Of a stretch of 33,628 nt of DNA, positions 14,455-19,985 are shown one piece after another. The DNA comes from Bacteroidota bacterium (GTDB lineage Bacteria > Bacteroidota > Ignavibacteria > Kapaibacteriales > UBA2268): contig JAKAKE010000206.1 in assembly GCA_021824625.1 (NCBI GenBank), positions 1 through 33,628 of the forward strand. Direction: 5' to 3'. The first letter of the stretch is position 1. Each line of letters begins with the position of its first letter. A model generated the notes under the pieces. That model was given only the letters and a program-made list of their open reading frames with translations, was not told where the DNA came from and ran no database searches. Made by a program: the position numbers and the translations under genes.

Positions 14455-14997
14455 ATGCAAAGTGAATTTGATATACTGAAGGATGTTGTCGGCAAGCTCG
14501 AAGAACTTGAAATTGAATATATGCTGACAGGTTCTTTCGCAATGAATTATTATGCAATCCCGCGGATGACACGGGGTATTGACATTATTATTGAATTGTA
14601 TTTATCAGGTATTGACAAGCTTTATAATAAGTTTAAAGATGAATATTATATTGATAAAGATGTTATAACTGAATCAATAAAACAGCAATCTATTTTTAAT
14701 ATTTTGCATAATGATTCATTCACTAAAATTGATTTTATAATCAGAAAAAAAGATGAATACAGAACAAATGAATTCAAAAGAAGAATTAAAGTATTATATA
14801 ATGATATTGATGTTTTTATTGTATCAAAAGAAGATTTAATTATTTCAAAGCTGATTTGGGCAAGGGACGGTGATTCGGATTACCAACTAAGAGATGTTAA
14901 GAATCTGATGGGAACCGGATATGATAAAGAATATCTCAAAATGTTAATTGACAAATTAAATTTAACGGATGTATTTCAAAGGATTAAGAATGACTGA
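14455..14997 (+). CDS. Nucleotidyltransferase-fold protein (first gene of a two-gene module)
   Basis: A 180-aa protein of the minimal nucleotidyltransferase superfamily. The core TGSFAMNYYAIPRMTRGIDI (25-42) has the GS signature followed by the position where two metal-binding aspartates are expected (RDID in relatives as I recall them). Here the first is Gly41 while Asp43 is retained. A further acidic strand (KIDFII, about 91-96) and EDLIISKLIWARDGDSDYQLRDVKNL (about 122-147) match the helical part of AbiEii-like or DUF6036-like proteins. It overlaps the next gene by 8 bp, so the two are translationally coupled. A toxin-antitoxin or defence role is a guess from the fold and pairing. The G41 change may mean loss of transferase activity. 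Confidence 0.78.
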   Translation: MQSEFDILKDVVGKLEELEIEYMLTGSFAMNYYAIPRMTRGIDIIIELYLSGIDKLYNKFKDEYYIDKDVITESIKQQSIFNILHNDSFTKIDFIIRKKDEYRTNEFKRRIKVLYNDIDVFIVSKEDLIISKLIWARDGDSDYQLRDVKNLMGTGYDKEYLKMLIDKLNLTDVFQRIKND

Positions 14998-15247
14998 CAC
15001 ATCGCCTGAATTCGAGAAATTTTACCGTGAAAAGATGATGTCCCTGTCGTCAGACGAAAGAATCAGAATCGGCTTGAGCATGAATGAGACAGCACGCCAA
15101 ATCGTATGGTCATCCATCCCTGCAGACCTGCCTGAATCGGAACGCCGTGTGCAGTTTTTCCTGAGATATTATAAAAATGATTTCACCGGAAAGCAGAGGA
15201 ATGAGATAATCAAGAAGATAAGAAATAATACTCAAAGAAAAATATAA
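14990..15247 (+). CDS. Small partner protein of the nucleotidyltransferase
   Basis: An 85-aa soluble, mostly helical protein. The start at 14990 (MTDTSPEF) is preferred over an in-frame ATG seven codons earlier because ATGACTGA overlaps the upstream stop, as in coupled pairs. The pattern SSDERIRIGLSMNETARQIVW...LPESERRVQFFLRYYKNDF (residues about 19-66) resembles a small family that I recall sitting next to nucleotidyltransferase genes. No catalytic motif is visible. The pair may form an antitoxin-toxin-like or regulatory module, but which member would be which is not evident. Confidence 0.7.
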   Translation: MTDTSPEFEKFYREKMMSLSSDERIRIGLSMNETARQIVWSSIPADLPESERRVQFFLRYYKNDFTGKQRNEIIKKIRNNTQRKI

Positions 15248-15369: not shown

Positions 15370-16935
15370 ATGGATGCAAACAAGGAATTAATTGACAAGA
15401 AGATTAAAAAGCTGAGAGAAATTCAGGAAAAAGCATTACTCGGCGGCGGCAAGAAAAGAATTGACGACCAGCACGCTAAAGGCAAGCTGACTGCAAGGGA
15501 GCGGCTCGACCTTATGCTCGACAAAGGTTCTTTCCGCGAAATTGACAGACTTGTCCATCATCATTCACATGAATTCGGATTGAATAAAACCGTGTTTTTC
15601 GGAGACGGAGTAGTTACCGGACACGGCGAAATAAACGGGCAGAAGGTGTTCGTGTTTTCTCAGGATTTCACTGTTCTCGGAGGAAGTCTTGCGGAAGAAC
15701 ACGGAAGAAAAATTTGCAAGATTATGGAAATGGCGATGAAAAGCGGCTTGCCTGTGATTGGGCTGAATGATTCAGGCGGTGCGCGTGTGCAGGAAGGTGT
15801 GATATCGCTTGGGGCTTATGCAGATATTTTTCTTTTGAATACACTTGCATCCGGTGTTGTTCCTCAGATTTCGGTTGTAATGGGTCCCTGTGCCGGTGGT
15901 GCGGTTTATTCACCTGCGATAACAGATTTTATTATCATGGTGAGGAAAACTTCATACATGTTTGTTACTGGTCCAAAGGTTGTTAAGACTGTAACTCATG
16001 AAGATCTGACTTCGGATGAACTCGGGGGTGCTGATGTGCATGCTTCCAAGAGCGGTGTGGCTCACTTCGTTGCAGACAATGACATGGAAGCTATGGAAAT
16101 TGTGAAAAAGCTGATGTCATATATTCCGTCAAATAATGCAGAGGAGCCTCCTTACATCCCGAATGATGACCCGGTTGACAGACAGGATGACGAACTGACA
16201 TATATAATTCCTGCAAATCCGAATCAGCCATATGATATGAAGGAAATCATTCGCAAGGTTGCAGATAAAAGCGAGTTCCTCGAAGTGCATAAAGATTGGG
16301 CAATGAATATAATCGTTGGATTCATCCGGCTGGGAGGCAGGTCAATCGGTGTAATAGCGAATCAGCCTGCAATCATGGCGGGAGTACTGGATATAAATTC
16401 ATCACGCAAGGCAGGGCGTTTCATCCGATTCTGCGATGCATTCAACATACCGCTCCTCACGTTTGAAGATGTTCCCGGTTTCATGCCCGGTGCCGACCAG
16501 GAATGGGGAGGAATAATTGCCAATGGTGCAAAATTACTTTATGCTTACTGCGAGGCGACTGTACCTAAGGTTACTGTGATTACACGTAAAGCTTACGGAG
16601 GTGCTTATGACGTGATGAACAGTAAGCACGTCCGCGGCGATTTGAACTTTGCCTGGCCCACTGCGGAGCTTGCGGTGATGGGTGCAAAAGGTGCCGTAGA
16701 AATTATTTTTAAGAAGGAGATCGAATCTGCAGAGGATTCAGAGAACAGGGAAACTGAACTGATTAATGAATTCACGGACAAGTTTGCTAATCCATACATT
16801 GCGGCTTCCTACGGCTATATTGACGAGGTTATAGAGCCTAAGTACACGCGTCAACGTTTGATTGAAGCATTCTCACTGTTAGAGAACAAGGTGGATAAAA
16901 ATCCACCGCGGAAGCACGGGAATATCCCGTTGTGA
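15370..16935 (+). CDS. Acyl-CoA carboxylase carboxyltransferase subunit (propionyl-/methylmalonyl-CoA type)
   Basis: A 521-aa biotin-dependent carboxyltransferase (PccB/MmdA type), which moves CO2 between carboxybiotin and an acyl-CoA, most likely propionyl-CoA giving methylmalonyl-CoA, or the reverse in a decarboxylase. The two crotonase-like halves are clear: the N-half has [18 protein letters not shown] (about 37-54), [12 protein letters not shown] (about 137-148) and [13 protein letters not shown] (about 176-188). The C-half has [17 protein letters not shown] (about 371-387) and [14 protein letters not shown] (about 402-415). The biotin carboxylase and biotin-carrier subunits are not in this window. 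The ATG is preceded by an A/T-rich leader without a Shine-Dalgarno. The stop codon is 6 bp from a 31-bp direct repeat. Confidence 0.93.
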
Positions 16936-16941
16936 TGAAAT

Positions 16942-16972
16942 TTTGATTACAAGTAAAGTTTTAGTAAATTTC
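16942..16972. repeat. 31-bp direct repeat, left copy (bounds phage-like cassette)
   Basis: Identical to 17644-17674 except for one base (16949 A versus 17651 G); offset 702 bp. The bases on either side differ, so the boundaries are sharp. The left copy sits 6 bp after the carboxyltransferase stop codon; the right copy cuts into the cassette's third gene. Confidence 0.93.
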
Positions 16973-16998: not shown

Positions 16999-17268
16999 AT
17001 GAGTAAAATAACTCTCGAAGAACAGATAAAATGTGTAATCAGAGAAATTGGAATAAGAAAAAGAGAATATCCTTATTTGGTTGAAACTAATATATTAAGA
17101 TCTAAAGAAGCTGAATATCAAATAAAAGTTATGGAAGGTGTTCTCGATACTTTGAAACAACTTGAATGGCACATTGGTTATAATTATCAGCAAGAATTAT
17201 GGGAAAAAGAAAATGAAGAAAGGTTACAAAAGGTAATAAAGGAAATAAATGAAACAAATAATGACTAA
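16999..17268 (+). CDS. Phage-like small helical protein
   Basis: An 89-aa, highly charged helical protein (residues 4-60: EEQIKCVIREIGIRKREYPY...KEAEYQIKVMEGVLDTLKQLE). The pattern of IREIxxRxxxYPxxV followed by a conserved KAEYQIxVME is one I associate with small uncharacterised phage and prophage proteins near replication or nuclease genes. AAGGGA lies upstream of the ATG. Its last codons overlap the start of the nuclease gene (ATGACTAA), indicating coupling. It lies just inside the left 31-bp repeat. Function unknown. Confidence 0.72.
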   Translation: MSKITLEEQIKCVIREIGIRKREYPYLVETNILRSKEAEYQIKVMEGVLDTLKQLEWHIGYNYQQELWEKENEERLQKVIKEINETNND

Positions 17269-17602
17269 GAAACCGAATAGTCTTTTTGCAGTTATATTAA
17301 GAAGTGAACTTAAAGAAAATATCATTACTGAGTATAGATTCCATCCTCGACGCGAATACAGATTTGATATTGCGATACCTAAATGGAAAGTAGCTATCGA
17401 AATCGAGGGTGGAGTATATACGAGTACAGTAGCACATTCTTCTATCAAAGGCATACTACTAAGAGACATGGAGAAATATAATCTTGCAACTGAAGAAGGG
17501 TGGAGAGTATTGAGGTATACTCTAGGGCAGACAATGAAAAGTGCGACATTAGAACAAATAAAAAAAACAATTGGACAAGTTAAGATATTATTAAACAATT
17601 AA
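17261..17602 (+). CDS. Phage-type PD-(D/E)XK nuclease (VRR-NUC/DUF559-like)
   Basis: A small restriction-fold nuclease of the kind carried by many phages. From the start at 17261 (113 aa; preferred because ATGACTAA overlaps the upstream stop, although an ATG four codons earlier exists) the core reads YRFHPRREYRFDIAIP followed by KVAIEIEGG. D36, E47 and E49 would be the metal-binding triad. DMEKYNLATEEGWRVLRYT (about 73-91) is the second conserved block. Such proteins are proposed to act on branched or phage replication intermediates. No other phage structural, integrase or terminase gene is nearby, so this is a cassette rather than a prophage. Confidence 0.85.
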   Translation: MTKKPNSLFAVILRSELKENIITEYRFHPRREYRFDIAIPKWKVAIEIEGGVYTSTVAHSSIKGILLRDMEKYNLATEEGWRVLRYTLGQTMKSATLEQIKKTIGQVKILLNN

Positions 17603-17615
17603 GGAGTAAAAAATT

Positions 17616-17648
17616 ATGACAGATAGAATAAAAAAAGTCGTGGTTTGA
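17616..17648 (+). pseudogene. Beheaded third gene of the phage-like cassette
   Basis: A strong AAGGAG (17601-17606) overlaps the stop of the nuclease gene and is followed nine bases later by ATG and only ten codons (MTDRIKKVVV) before TGA. The TGA is made by bases of the right 31-bp direct repeat, which starts at 17644. The start of the peptide resembles a small phage protein that I recall beginning in this way. It is best read as a real gene start cut off at the repeat junction. Confidence 0.6.
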
Positions 17649-17674
17649 TTGCAAGTAAAGTTTTAGTAAATTTC
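17644..17674. repeat. 31-bp direct repeat, right copy
   Basis: Partner of 16942-16972. It forms the junction at which the cassette's third gene stops, and lies inside the 3' end of the opposing membrane-protein frame, where it would encode the antisense residues FTKTLLAIK. Confidence 0.93.
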
Positions 17675-17993
17675 TTCTTTGTAATTTTCATTTCTTCTTT
17701 TTGTAATCTAATTTCCTCCCTCTGTAGTCCTAATTCTTCCCTTTGAAATTCGATTTCTTTTTTTTGTAATAGTAGAGTTCTATAAAATAGTATAACTCCA
17801 GCTAATGCCCATAATGATCCTGTTATTCCACTAATATAATTACCCCATTCTCCGATATCTTTAGTAATAGAAAAATTAAAAAGCCAAGATATTATTGATT
17901 TACAGAATATCGCTAATATTCCAAGAAAAATCATTACCAATGAAGTAATGGAAAAGAAATCAAAATTTATTAATTTTTTCTTTAGACATGTCT

Positions 17994-19337
17994 TTACTTA
18001 AATTTCTTTAATAGCTTTTTAAAATCCTCATCATCAAGAAAATGCTTCCAATCAATATCAACAAGGACATATTTCTTTGATGTATAATTATTACTCAAGC
18101 ATTCTTCAATATATTTGAAAGCTGAATTTTTATATTCAATATTGTTGAATTTATTAAATAAAACTGAATAAATACATGAAATATTGTATAGTTCATAATT
18201 TTTATTTTCACCGATATCTTCATTGAGAATTTTTAAACATGCCTTCTCATCTTCAAGTCGAGCAAGACATAATGATACATATGATAAGGATTGTATTTTA
18301 CCTTTTAAATCAATTGCAAAAGTTATTGATTCATAAAAATCCTTTTTAGAATCTTCAAAATTACCAACCTGATAAAATGAGCTACCTCTATTATATAAAA
18401 TATCATATTTAAATGAATTATTTATTATCAATGGCAATGCTTTTGAATAATCATCAATTGCACCTGCATGATTGTGATTTCTCATTTTCATATCAGCCCT
18501 AGATAAAAATACTTCGGGTTCATCATCGCCATTAGTACAGCATTCCATAAATAAACGTCCTAAAGTAGTAATTTCGTAGTAACCTTTTTCAATATCTAAG
18601 ATTTCTTTTTTCTTATCAATTATAGATTCATAATATTCAATTCTAATTTTATAAATATCGTTTAAAAAAACATATAATTCTTCATTTGTTTTATATAAAT
18701 TATCAATACGCTTAATAATCCCCAAACTAGATAAATTTGTTAAATAAAGATCGATGTTTTCTCTAAAAAGCAATGAGATTAGATATTCTATGCCTGTTAA
18801 GGGTTCTTCAAAGAAAATAAATGCTTGTCCATTTAAATCTTTTCTTTTTATTCTTATAAAAGGAATACTTTCTTGATCATATAAATAACATAATATTTTT
18901 GCTTCATCAGGTGATAAACTCTCTATTAATTTTATATAATTGGGATGAACATCTTTAATTGTATCACTATTTGAAGCCTTTTGAAGTAAGTTTATAAACA
19001 AATCACTAATATTTTTATTCTCAGTATATGTTAATTTATCAAATACAGGAACTGCTATTTCTGGTGGAATATTACAAATTTTTTCTTCATCAATATTTTC
19101 TATTTTCTCTCTATATTTATTCATGTTATTTAGAAAAATTATTTTCCTTTTTTCACTAAATGATTTTATTGGTATTAAACCAATATTTAATAAATCTAAT
19201 ATTGTTTCAATAGCCAACCCAACTTTTCTTACTCCTGGTTGGGCAAGATCTTCATAAATCTCCATTAAAAATTTTGTTATTTCTTCAGGTGTTTTATTAA
19301 CGATTGGAATTAAATCATTCATGTTTATATTGTTCAA
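17994..19337 (-). CDS. DUF4393/Abi-alpha-like protein with C-terminal TPR-like repeats
   Basis: A 447-aa cytoplasmic protein. Residues about 25-175 match the DUF4393 (abortive infection alpha) pattern: YEDLAQPGVRKVGLAIETIL, then IPIK...KRKIIFLNNMNKYREKIENI, PPEIAVPVFDKLTYTENKNISDLFINLL and HPNYIKLIESLSPDEAKILCYL. The C-terminal part (about 275-380) has TPR-like helices (FLSRADMKMRNHNHAGAIDDYSKAL; YNRGSSFYQVGNFEDSKKDFYESI). DUF4393 members are linked to phage abortive infection in some bacteria; how they act is not known to me. A membrane coiled-coil gene follows 4 bp downstream. The upstream region carries a TTGACA-N17-TAAATT promoter shared with the dsRBD-like gene. Very low GC compared with the carboxyltransferase suggests acquisition. 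Confidence 0.72.
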   Translation of the reverse strand: MNNINMNDLIPIVNKTPEEITKFLMEIYEDLAQPGVRKVGLAIETILDLLNIGLIPIKSFSEKRKIIFLNNMNKYREKIENIDEEKICNIPPEIAVPVFDKLTYTENKNISDLFINLLQKASNSDTIKDVHPNYIKLIESLSPDEAKILCYLYDQESIPFIRIKRKDLNGQAFIFFEEPLTGIEYLISLLFRENIDLYLTNLSSLGIIKRIDNLYKTNEELYVFLNDIYKIRIEYYESIIDKKKEILDIEKGYYEITTLGRLFMECCTNGDDEPEVFLSRADMKMRNHNHAGAIDDYSKALPLIINNSFKYDILYNRGSSFYQVGNFEDSKKDFYESITFAIDLKGKIQSLSYVSLCLARLEDEKACLKILNEDIGENKNYELYNISCIYSVLFNKFNNIEYKNSAFKYIEECLSNNYTSKKYVLVDIDWKHFLDDEDFKKLLKKFK

Positions 19338-19384: not shown

Positions 19385-19476
19385 ACATCTATAGACTAAT
19401 TTACACAAAATCTCATTCTTTGTCAATTTAATTTTGCAATTCAAAATTTCTCAATCAACACTTAACACTCAAAACA
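19385..19476. repeat. Duplicated promoter module, copy 1 (upstream of the Abi-alpha-like gene)
   Basis: Imperfect direct repeat of 19891-19985. The first 46 bp (19385-19430) align nearly base for base and include the promoter. The last about 20 bp share AACACTTAACACTCAAAACA. The middle is diverged. The two copies flank the dsRBD-like gene. Confidence 0.85.
19398..19426 (-). promoter_or_regulatory. Sigma70-like promoter for the Abi-alpha/TPR gene
   Basis: On the minus strand TTGACA (19426-19421) and TAAATT (19403-19398) are 17 bp apart, the optimal spacing. It drives leftward transcription, with the -10 box about 60 bp before the ATG at 19337. The identical arrangement recurs at 19904-19932. 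Confidence 0.55.
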
Positions 19477-19890: not shown

Positions 19891-19985
19891 ACATCTGTAA
19901 ACTAATTTACACAAAATATTATACTTTGTCAATTTATTTTACAGTATTATACTTACTAAAAAAATTAACACTTGACACTCAAAAC
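19891..19985. repeat. Duplicated promoter module, copy 2 (upstream of the dsRBD-like gene)
   Basis: Partner of 19385-19476, with the same promoter core and the AACACTTGACACTCAAAACA tail. It lies 58 bp before the dsRBD-like start, leaving a leader that includes the strong Shine-Dalgarno. Confidence 0.85.
19904..19932 (-). promoter_or_regulatory. Sigma70-like promoter for the dsRBD-like gene
   Basis: Minus-strand TTGACA (19932-19927) and TAAATT (19909-19904) with 17 bp between. The hexamers are the same as in copy 1 while the spacer differs in several bases, so the boxes are better conserved than their surroundings. Confidence 0.55.

Follow-up and report, generated by a model that had tools for sequence, protein, structure and literature searches.

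AbiAlpha-TPR, a probable stand-alone abortive-infection protein with a lineage-specific TPR tail in a small chromosomal defence hotspot of Ignavibacteria

Introduction

AbiAlpha proteins are defined by the Abi_alpha domain (PF14337, formerly DUF4393) and constitute a single-gene abortive-infection family for which experimental evidence is available from ef2833, a gene of prophage 6 of Enterococcus faecalis V583 (PMC6356687). Cloned alone with its own promoter, ef2833 was found to block phage Idefix after adsorption, with the infected cells dying and lysis occurring about 10 min early (PMC6356687). Typically, AbiAlpha proteins are stand-alone proteins of about 250–310 aa, which correspond to the PADLOC system PDC-S47. 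The protein with the highest similarity to the family profile in the PDB is ABO_0056 from Alcanivorax borkumensis (PDB 3h35; E 2e-5). To our knowledge, the AbiAlpha family has no known enzymatic residues. A separate Abi family, putAbiC (PF16872), is characterized by N-terminal transmembrane (TM) segments, which are followed by a QREEL-type coiled coil and the C-terminal domain that gives the family its Pfam entry.

In this study, we are discussing an AbiAlpha gene from a groundwater-type bacterium of the class Ignavibacteria, the genome of which comprises 3.58 Mb in 231 contigs. The stretch of DNA that was analysed, hereafter "the window", covers 33,628 nucleotides of one of these contigs (C39). 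An initial annotation, made from the sequence of the window, had combined the AbiAlpha gene with the frame downstream of it into an undescribed two-gene defence system, in which a TPR adaptor would act together with a membrane effector that is decaying in this strain. The analysis presented here leads to a different picture. The gene at positions 17994–19337 most likely encodes a stand-alone AbiAlpha abortive-infection protein with a lineage-specific TPR tail, which is located in a defence hotspot, and the adjacent putAbiC stub is dead rather than a partner. While the AbiAlpha family and its role in abortive infection are already known, the AbiAlpha-TPR architecture and the hotspot in Ignavibacteria appear to be new; a literature search of incomplete coverage found no description of either, nor did it return anything on PDC-S47 or PF16872/putAbiC. 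The features of the locus are compiled in Table 1.

Table 1. Features of the AbiAlpha-TPR locus, with positions referring to the window
Feature	Position	Strand	Evidence or remarks
abi-alpha-TPR gene	17994–19337	−	447 aa (442 aa from ATG 19322); PF14337, PADLOC PDC-S47, sister-species orthologue
Abi_alpha (DUF4393) domain	18537–19127	−	PF14337 placement, AlphaFold2, fold matches
C-terminal TPR tail, ~residues 269–447	17997–18533	−	TPR_1 above cut-off, TPR_END_plus sub-threshold
putAbiC-family remnant	17614–17989	−	frame-shifted after ATG 17989; TM and coiled coil left; PF16872 lost
31-nt direct repeat, copy 1	16942–16972	+	just past mmdA stop
31-nt direct repeat, copy 2	17644–17674	+	where putAbiC remnant loses homology
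Cassette between repeats	16999–17602	+	89-aa ORF and 117-aa DUF559/phrog_503-like nuclease
mmdA-like methylmalonyl-CoA decarboxylase/carboxyltransferase	15370–16935	+	left hotspot edge; 96–98% aa identity in congeners
dsRBD-like gene, 116 aa	19483–19833	−	right hotspot edge; sub-threshold dsrm/Dicer_dsRBD
Promoter-like box before abi, TTGACA-17-TAAATT	19398–19426	−	10/12 consensus matches
Promoter-like box, second copy, before dsRBD-like gene	19904–19932	−	same box

Domain Architecture and Predicted Fold

The combination of an Abi-alpha part with TPR repeats in one protein, as proposed in the initial annotation, was borne out by profile searches. Residues 71–267 match PF14337 with an E value of 2.4e-41 and 142.3 bits, against a cut-off of 29 bits, and the match covers profile positions 9–196 of 196; furthermore, the protein is recognized by PADLOC as PDC-S47 with 285 bits. 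In the tail, a TPR_1 match at residues 312–339 lies just above its Pfam cut-off (28.2 vs. 27.8 bits), and the NCBIfam model TPR_END_plus remains below threshold at residues 383–444 (28 vs. 32). Judged by these scores, the TPR assignment of the tail is strong for one repeat only. The listed start of the gene is the TTG codon at 19337. Five codons further on, an in-frame ATG is found at 19322; it is shared with the sister species and could be the true start.

In the AlphaFold2 model, which is based on an alignment of 77 sequences, most of the core between residues 70 and 270 reaches a pLDDT of about 90 or more, and the tail is modelled as helical repeats, of which residues 276–340 are poor (pLDDT under 60). 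The second half of the Abi_alpha domain is predicted to form a winged helix. The 3h35 structure is also the top fold match of the core (Z 11.7, rmsd 5.7 over 137 residues), followed by MarR/HxlR-type proteins at Z values of about 7, which match the second half of the core. Unlike AbiAlpha-TPR, the 3h35 protein is short and devoid of a TPR tail, and, because it is without known function, no mechanism can be derived from the fold match. The tail aligns with the filament repeats of Avs5/AVAST5 at a Z value of 8.3 over 123 residues, where common helical-repeat matches score alike; an NTPase or STAND core was sought in the protein by sequence, using Pfam and PADLOC, and none matched.

A helix near the N-terminus that inserts into the membrane was considered as a possible lysis device. 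The most hydrophobic stretch of the AbiAlpha family profile corresponds to residues ~39–61. Its mean hydropathy of 0.98 is below the levels of TM segments, and the per-sequence median amounts to 1.08 vs. 0.96 in the remaining protein; according to these values, the N-terminal segment does not clearly span the membrane.

Comparison with the AbiAlpha Family

For the family survey, 122 Abi_alpha loci were fetched (80 from genomes, 35 from viral contigs and 7 others), mostly with flanks of 3–3.5 kb, which are shorter at contig ends. A clear AbiAlpha ORF is present in 117 of these loci, resulting in a non-redundant set of 86 homologues in addition to the protein of the window. The residues P97 and H131 are invariant in 77 AbiAlpha homologues, and L117, P132, V135, G260 and F263 are conserved at 90% or more in the same number of sequences; all seven are present in AbiAlpha-TPR. 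The protein shares with ef2833 and PDC-S47 the whole Abi_alpha domain, the conserved residues, and the size and order of the core. It differs from typical members by its length of 447 aa, by the tail of ~180 aa, and by its location in a chromosomal hotspot of a Gram-negative Ignavibacteria genome, whereas ef2833 resides in a prophage. Among the ORFs of the 117 loci, only that of the sister species is of similar length (448 aa); all others have at most 342 aa and mostly 250–310 aa. Likewise, among about 87 non-redundant homologues, the TPR tail is confined to the gene of the window and its orthologue in the sister species. Sequence comparison therewith describes the tail as an extension of the AbiAlpha architecture, with the core staying within the family.

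AbiAlpha is patchily distributed in the class, being found in 6 of 391 genomes, and is frequent in phage contigs. In several gut or rumen Clostridia and other gut bacteria, it is directly followed by a type I restriction-modification (RM) gene at a distance of 3–98 bp, namely hsdR at the loci L102, L106, L107 and L114, and hsdM at L092. The occurrence in phage contigs and next to type I RM genes supports a defence role of AbiAlpha in general. As a side observation, the position upstream of hsdR or hsdM suggests that AbiAlpha acts as a guard or backup for type I RM systems in these bacteria.

Inheritance and Selection

The closest named relative possessing the abi-TPR gene is the sister species "Ignavibacteriae bacterium isolate NC_groundwater_1893" (G396; locus L079), in which an orthologue with 74% aa identity is found at the same site. 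Between the two species, dN/dS of the gene is 0.17 overall, 0.12 for the Abi domain and 0.235 for the tail; by this measure, both parts of the protein are under purifying selection. The dS value of 0.90 is near that of mmdA (0.84) and, therefore, the gene has probably been inherited vertically since the species split.

In the sister species, abi-TPR is followed by an unrelated gene encoding a protein of 232 aa. Relatives of this protein are located between metabolic genes in five out of six genomes (acyl-CoA dehydrogenase-like and HMG-CoA synthase-like ORFs, annotated by eye), with no AbiAlpha-like ORF adjoining. Because of these metabolic surroundings, the 232-aa protein was rejected as a common AbiAlpha partner.

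The Downstream Frame as a Remnant of putAbiC

In the initial annotation, abi-TPR was followed by a membrane coiled-coil gene at a distance of 4 bp. A hydrophobic coiled-coil open frame is indeed present on the minus strand (17614–17940), but it starts with a TTG codon at 17940, 53 bp past the abi stop. The ATG at 17989, which does lie 4 bp past the abi stop, starts a frame of only nine codons up to a TGA, and the membrane frame is one frame away; hence, there is no intact membrane gene at 4 bp.

A whole-genome search retrieved relatives of this frame from 10 genomes of the class, the genome of the window excluded. They are mostly open frames of 257–341 aa, and the stub can be aligned to them only in their N-terminal region of TM segments and coiled coil, at about 31–42% identity over 60–100 residues (e.g., 42% over 85 residues at locus L165). 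All five full-length relatives tested (288–303 aa) contain the putAbiC domain PF16872 at residues ~194–282; the 108-aa stub frame yielded no PF16872 match in Pfam. A profile constructed from the five full-length proteins, with the stub left out, recovers the stub at an E value of 1e-21. On the basis of this homology, the downstream frame is best described as a remnant of putAbiC, i.e., of a known Abi family separate from AbiAlpha. The TM segments and the QREEL-type coiled coil are common to the stub and full-length putAbiC, whereas the start of the stub is frame-shifted and the C-terminal PF16872 domain is wholly lost, making it non-functional as read. To this extent, the supposition that the neighbour of abi-TPR is decaying was correct. 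Matches of the stub to Halogen_Hydrol and Flu_NS2 were both under the cut-off and were discarded as coiled-coil noise. By tblastn, relatives of the stub were found neither in plasmids nor in viral contigs, and phages yielded one weak match.

Scanning of the 122 Abi_alpha loci with the five-protein profile, at E values of up to 1, revealed no putAbiC-like ORF in any of them. Conversely, two congeneric genomes (G395 and G397) possess an intact putAbiC gene and no AbiAlpha. AbiAlpha and putAbiC assort independently.

A Cargo Hotspot between mmdA and a dsRBD-like Gene

Comparison with related genomes reveals a small hotspot for defence cargo at the site between mmdA and the dsRBD-like gene. Homology to congener DNA ends at most a few bases away from the stop codon of mmdA and picks up at the dsRBD-like gene, which is conserved in the genus (loci L031 and L033), or at its promoter; in G396, the abi gene is homologous as well. 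The cargo of the slot is abi-TPR in the genome of the window and in G396, a 1055-aa type IIG restriction-methylation protein in G395 (PADLOC, 257 bits), and RmuC in G397 (PADLOC RTasRmuC, 345 bits). In the latter genome, RmuC directly follows an ORF of 403 aa, which has a single hydrophobic segment at its N-terminus and reaches no Pfam cut-off; the two genes form an uncharacterised pair (L032, 10282–12755, plus strand). Small HicB-, HicA-, RelE- and PIN-like ORFs were recognized by eye downstream of mmdA in G406, a genome of the neighbouring genus (L034, 1–1700). Collectively, these data indicate that a little-studied phylum harbours a small chromosomal hotspot for defence genes.

The promoter-like box TTAAATTGACAAAGAATGAGATTTTGTGTAAATT (19398–19430 and 19904–19936 in the window; L031; L032, 10105–10188; L033, with two copies) precedes the differing cargo at this one site in four congeneric genomes and, with conserved bases around TTGACA-17-TAAATT, is also found in front of the dsRBD-like gene wherever that gene is present. 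The genome of the window contains two copies of the box only, both of which rank near the top of the promoter-like matches in the region (10 of 12). In G397, a single box is present and the dsRBD-like gene is missing, an arrangement that looks like the expected product of recombination between two boxes. Box copies flanking the dsRBD-like gene could allow exchange or loss by recombination. A more far-reaching interpretation is that the site is a promoter-served defence slot, in which the fixed box, conserved across species, drives any defence cargo behind it, with AbiAlpha having become a regulated single-protein sensor-effector through the gain of a TPR sensor tail; we regard this as tentative and, on balance, rather unlikely.

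Proposed Function and Alternative Interpretations

As the initial annotation had assumed, the locus probably serves phage defence, considering the Pfam and PADLOC matches, the tested family member, and a site that is occupied by RM, RmuC and toxin-antitoxin (TA)-like genes in relatives. According to our preferred interpretation, abi-TPR would be expressed from its own promoter within the hotspot. Because of its membership in the AbiAlpha family, the core is read as the killing part, which, by analogy with ef2833, would most likely respond to phage infection by early lysis and death of the cell before phage progeny are complete. The tail would most likely bind a phage or host protein and set when the core fires or, alternatively, drive self-assembly; this role, like the trigger and the lysis, is inferred. 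The fact that the AbiAlpha-TPR fusion is kept by selection suggests a protein–protein trigger and provides a handle for finding it. A putAbiC gene would once have held the next slot, of which the dead N-terminal stub is left. Given an identity of 20–30% to members from Gram-positive bacteria and phages, the lysis mechanism of ef2833 may not be transferable to this lineage.

The proposal of a genuine two-gene system, in which AbiAlpha-TPR as an adaptor or sensor activates a putAbiC-like membrane effector that has decayed in this strain, draws on the adjacency of the two genes on the same strand, on the remnant ATG 4 bp past the abi stop, which suggests translational coupling in the past, and on the TM and coiled-coil front end of putAbiC. 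Yet, the sister species lacks the putAbiC partner while keeping abi under purifying selection, its slot being occupied by an unrelated gene; none of the Abi_alpha loci surveyed includes a relative of putAbiC, congeners maintain the latter intact without AbiAlpha, and ef2833 acts alone. Since the partner lacks conservation and represents the truncated stub of a putAbiC gene, this proposal was rejected as very unlikely; in the survey of 122 Abi_alpha loci and in the sister species, the two were not neighbours, and the claim of an undescribed system did not hold. Moreover, as AbiAlpha is toxic alone, the roles of adaptor and effector that had been attributed to the TPR protein and the membrane protein, respectively, are probably reversed. 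The comparison of the same site between related genomes shows how the chance adjacency of an Abi gene and an Abi remnant can be mistaken for a two-gene system.

It is also conceivable that the gene has variable partners, with the TPR tail docking on whichever protein is co-transcribed, i.e., putAbiC here and the 232-aa protein in G396. A second gene is present just downstream on the same strand in both species, and the tail is constrained, as seen from its dN/dS value; against this stand the metabolic neighbourhoods of the 232-aa relatives and the turnover of hotspot cargo, which is a simpler account of the differing neighbours, so that docking of this kind seems improbable. Equally to be weighed is a housekeeping or regulatory function of abi-TPR as a winged-helix protein unrelated to phage defence, for which the predicted winged helix, with its similarity to 3h35 and to proteins of the MarR/HxlR type, could be put forward, as well as the circumstance that an ef2833-type activity in this lineage is argued by analogy. 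The patchy distribution of AbiAlpha in the class, its commonness in phage contigs and beside type I RM genes, the sharing of the hotspot with restriction and TA-like genes and the tested family member make a housekeeping function highly doubtful, and a stand-alone AbiAlpha protein with a TPR tail remains our preferred interpretation.

The Nuclease Cassette and the Remaining Window

The locus had, furthermore, been described as adjoining phage-derived DNA, which, as stated, was not confirmed. The neighbour is a cassette of 702 bp enclosed by the 31-nt direct repeats, which are 97% identical and occur in two copies only in the genome. Its nuclease gene, which is on the strand opposite to the putAbiC remnant, matches phrog_503 with an E value of 1e-23 and DUF559 of Pfam at sub-threshold level only. 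Possibly, the repeat-flanked cassette represents an insertion or recombination scar that cut short the putAbiC gene. The remaining window is ordinary chromosome, including parA/parB, mmdA and efflux genes.

Two further observations concern the surroundings. DUF559/Vsr-like nuclease ORFs occur three times on this one 33-kb contig (7125–7490, 17249–17602 and 29257–30075), the first and the third of which were recognized by eye. Between parB and mmdA, a DUF6036-like nucleotidyltransferase ORF and an overlapping 92-aa ORF (14455–15247, plus strand) form a pair that is missing at this position in G396 and resembles a toxin-antitoxin or AbiE-type pair.
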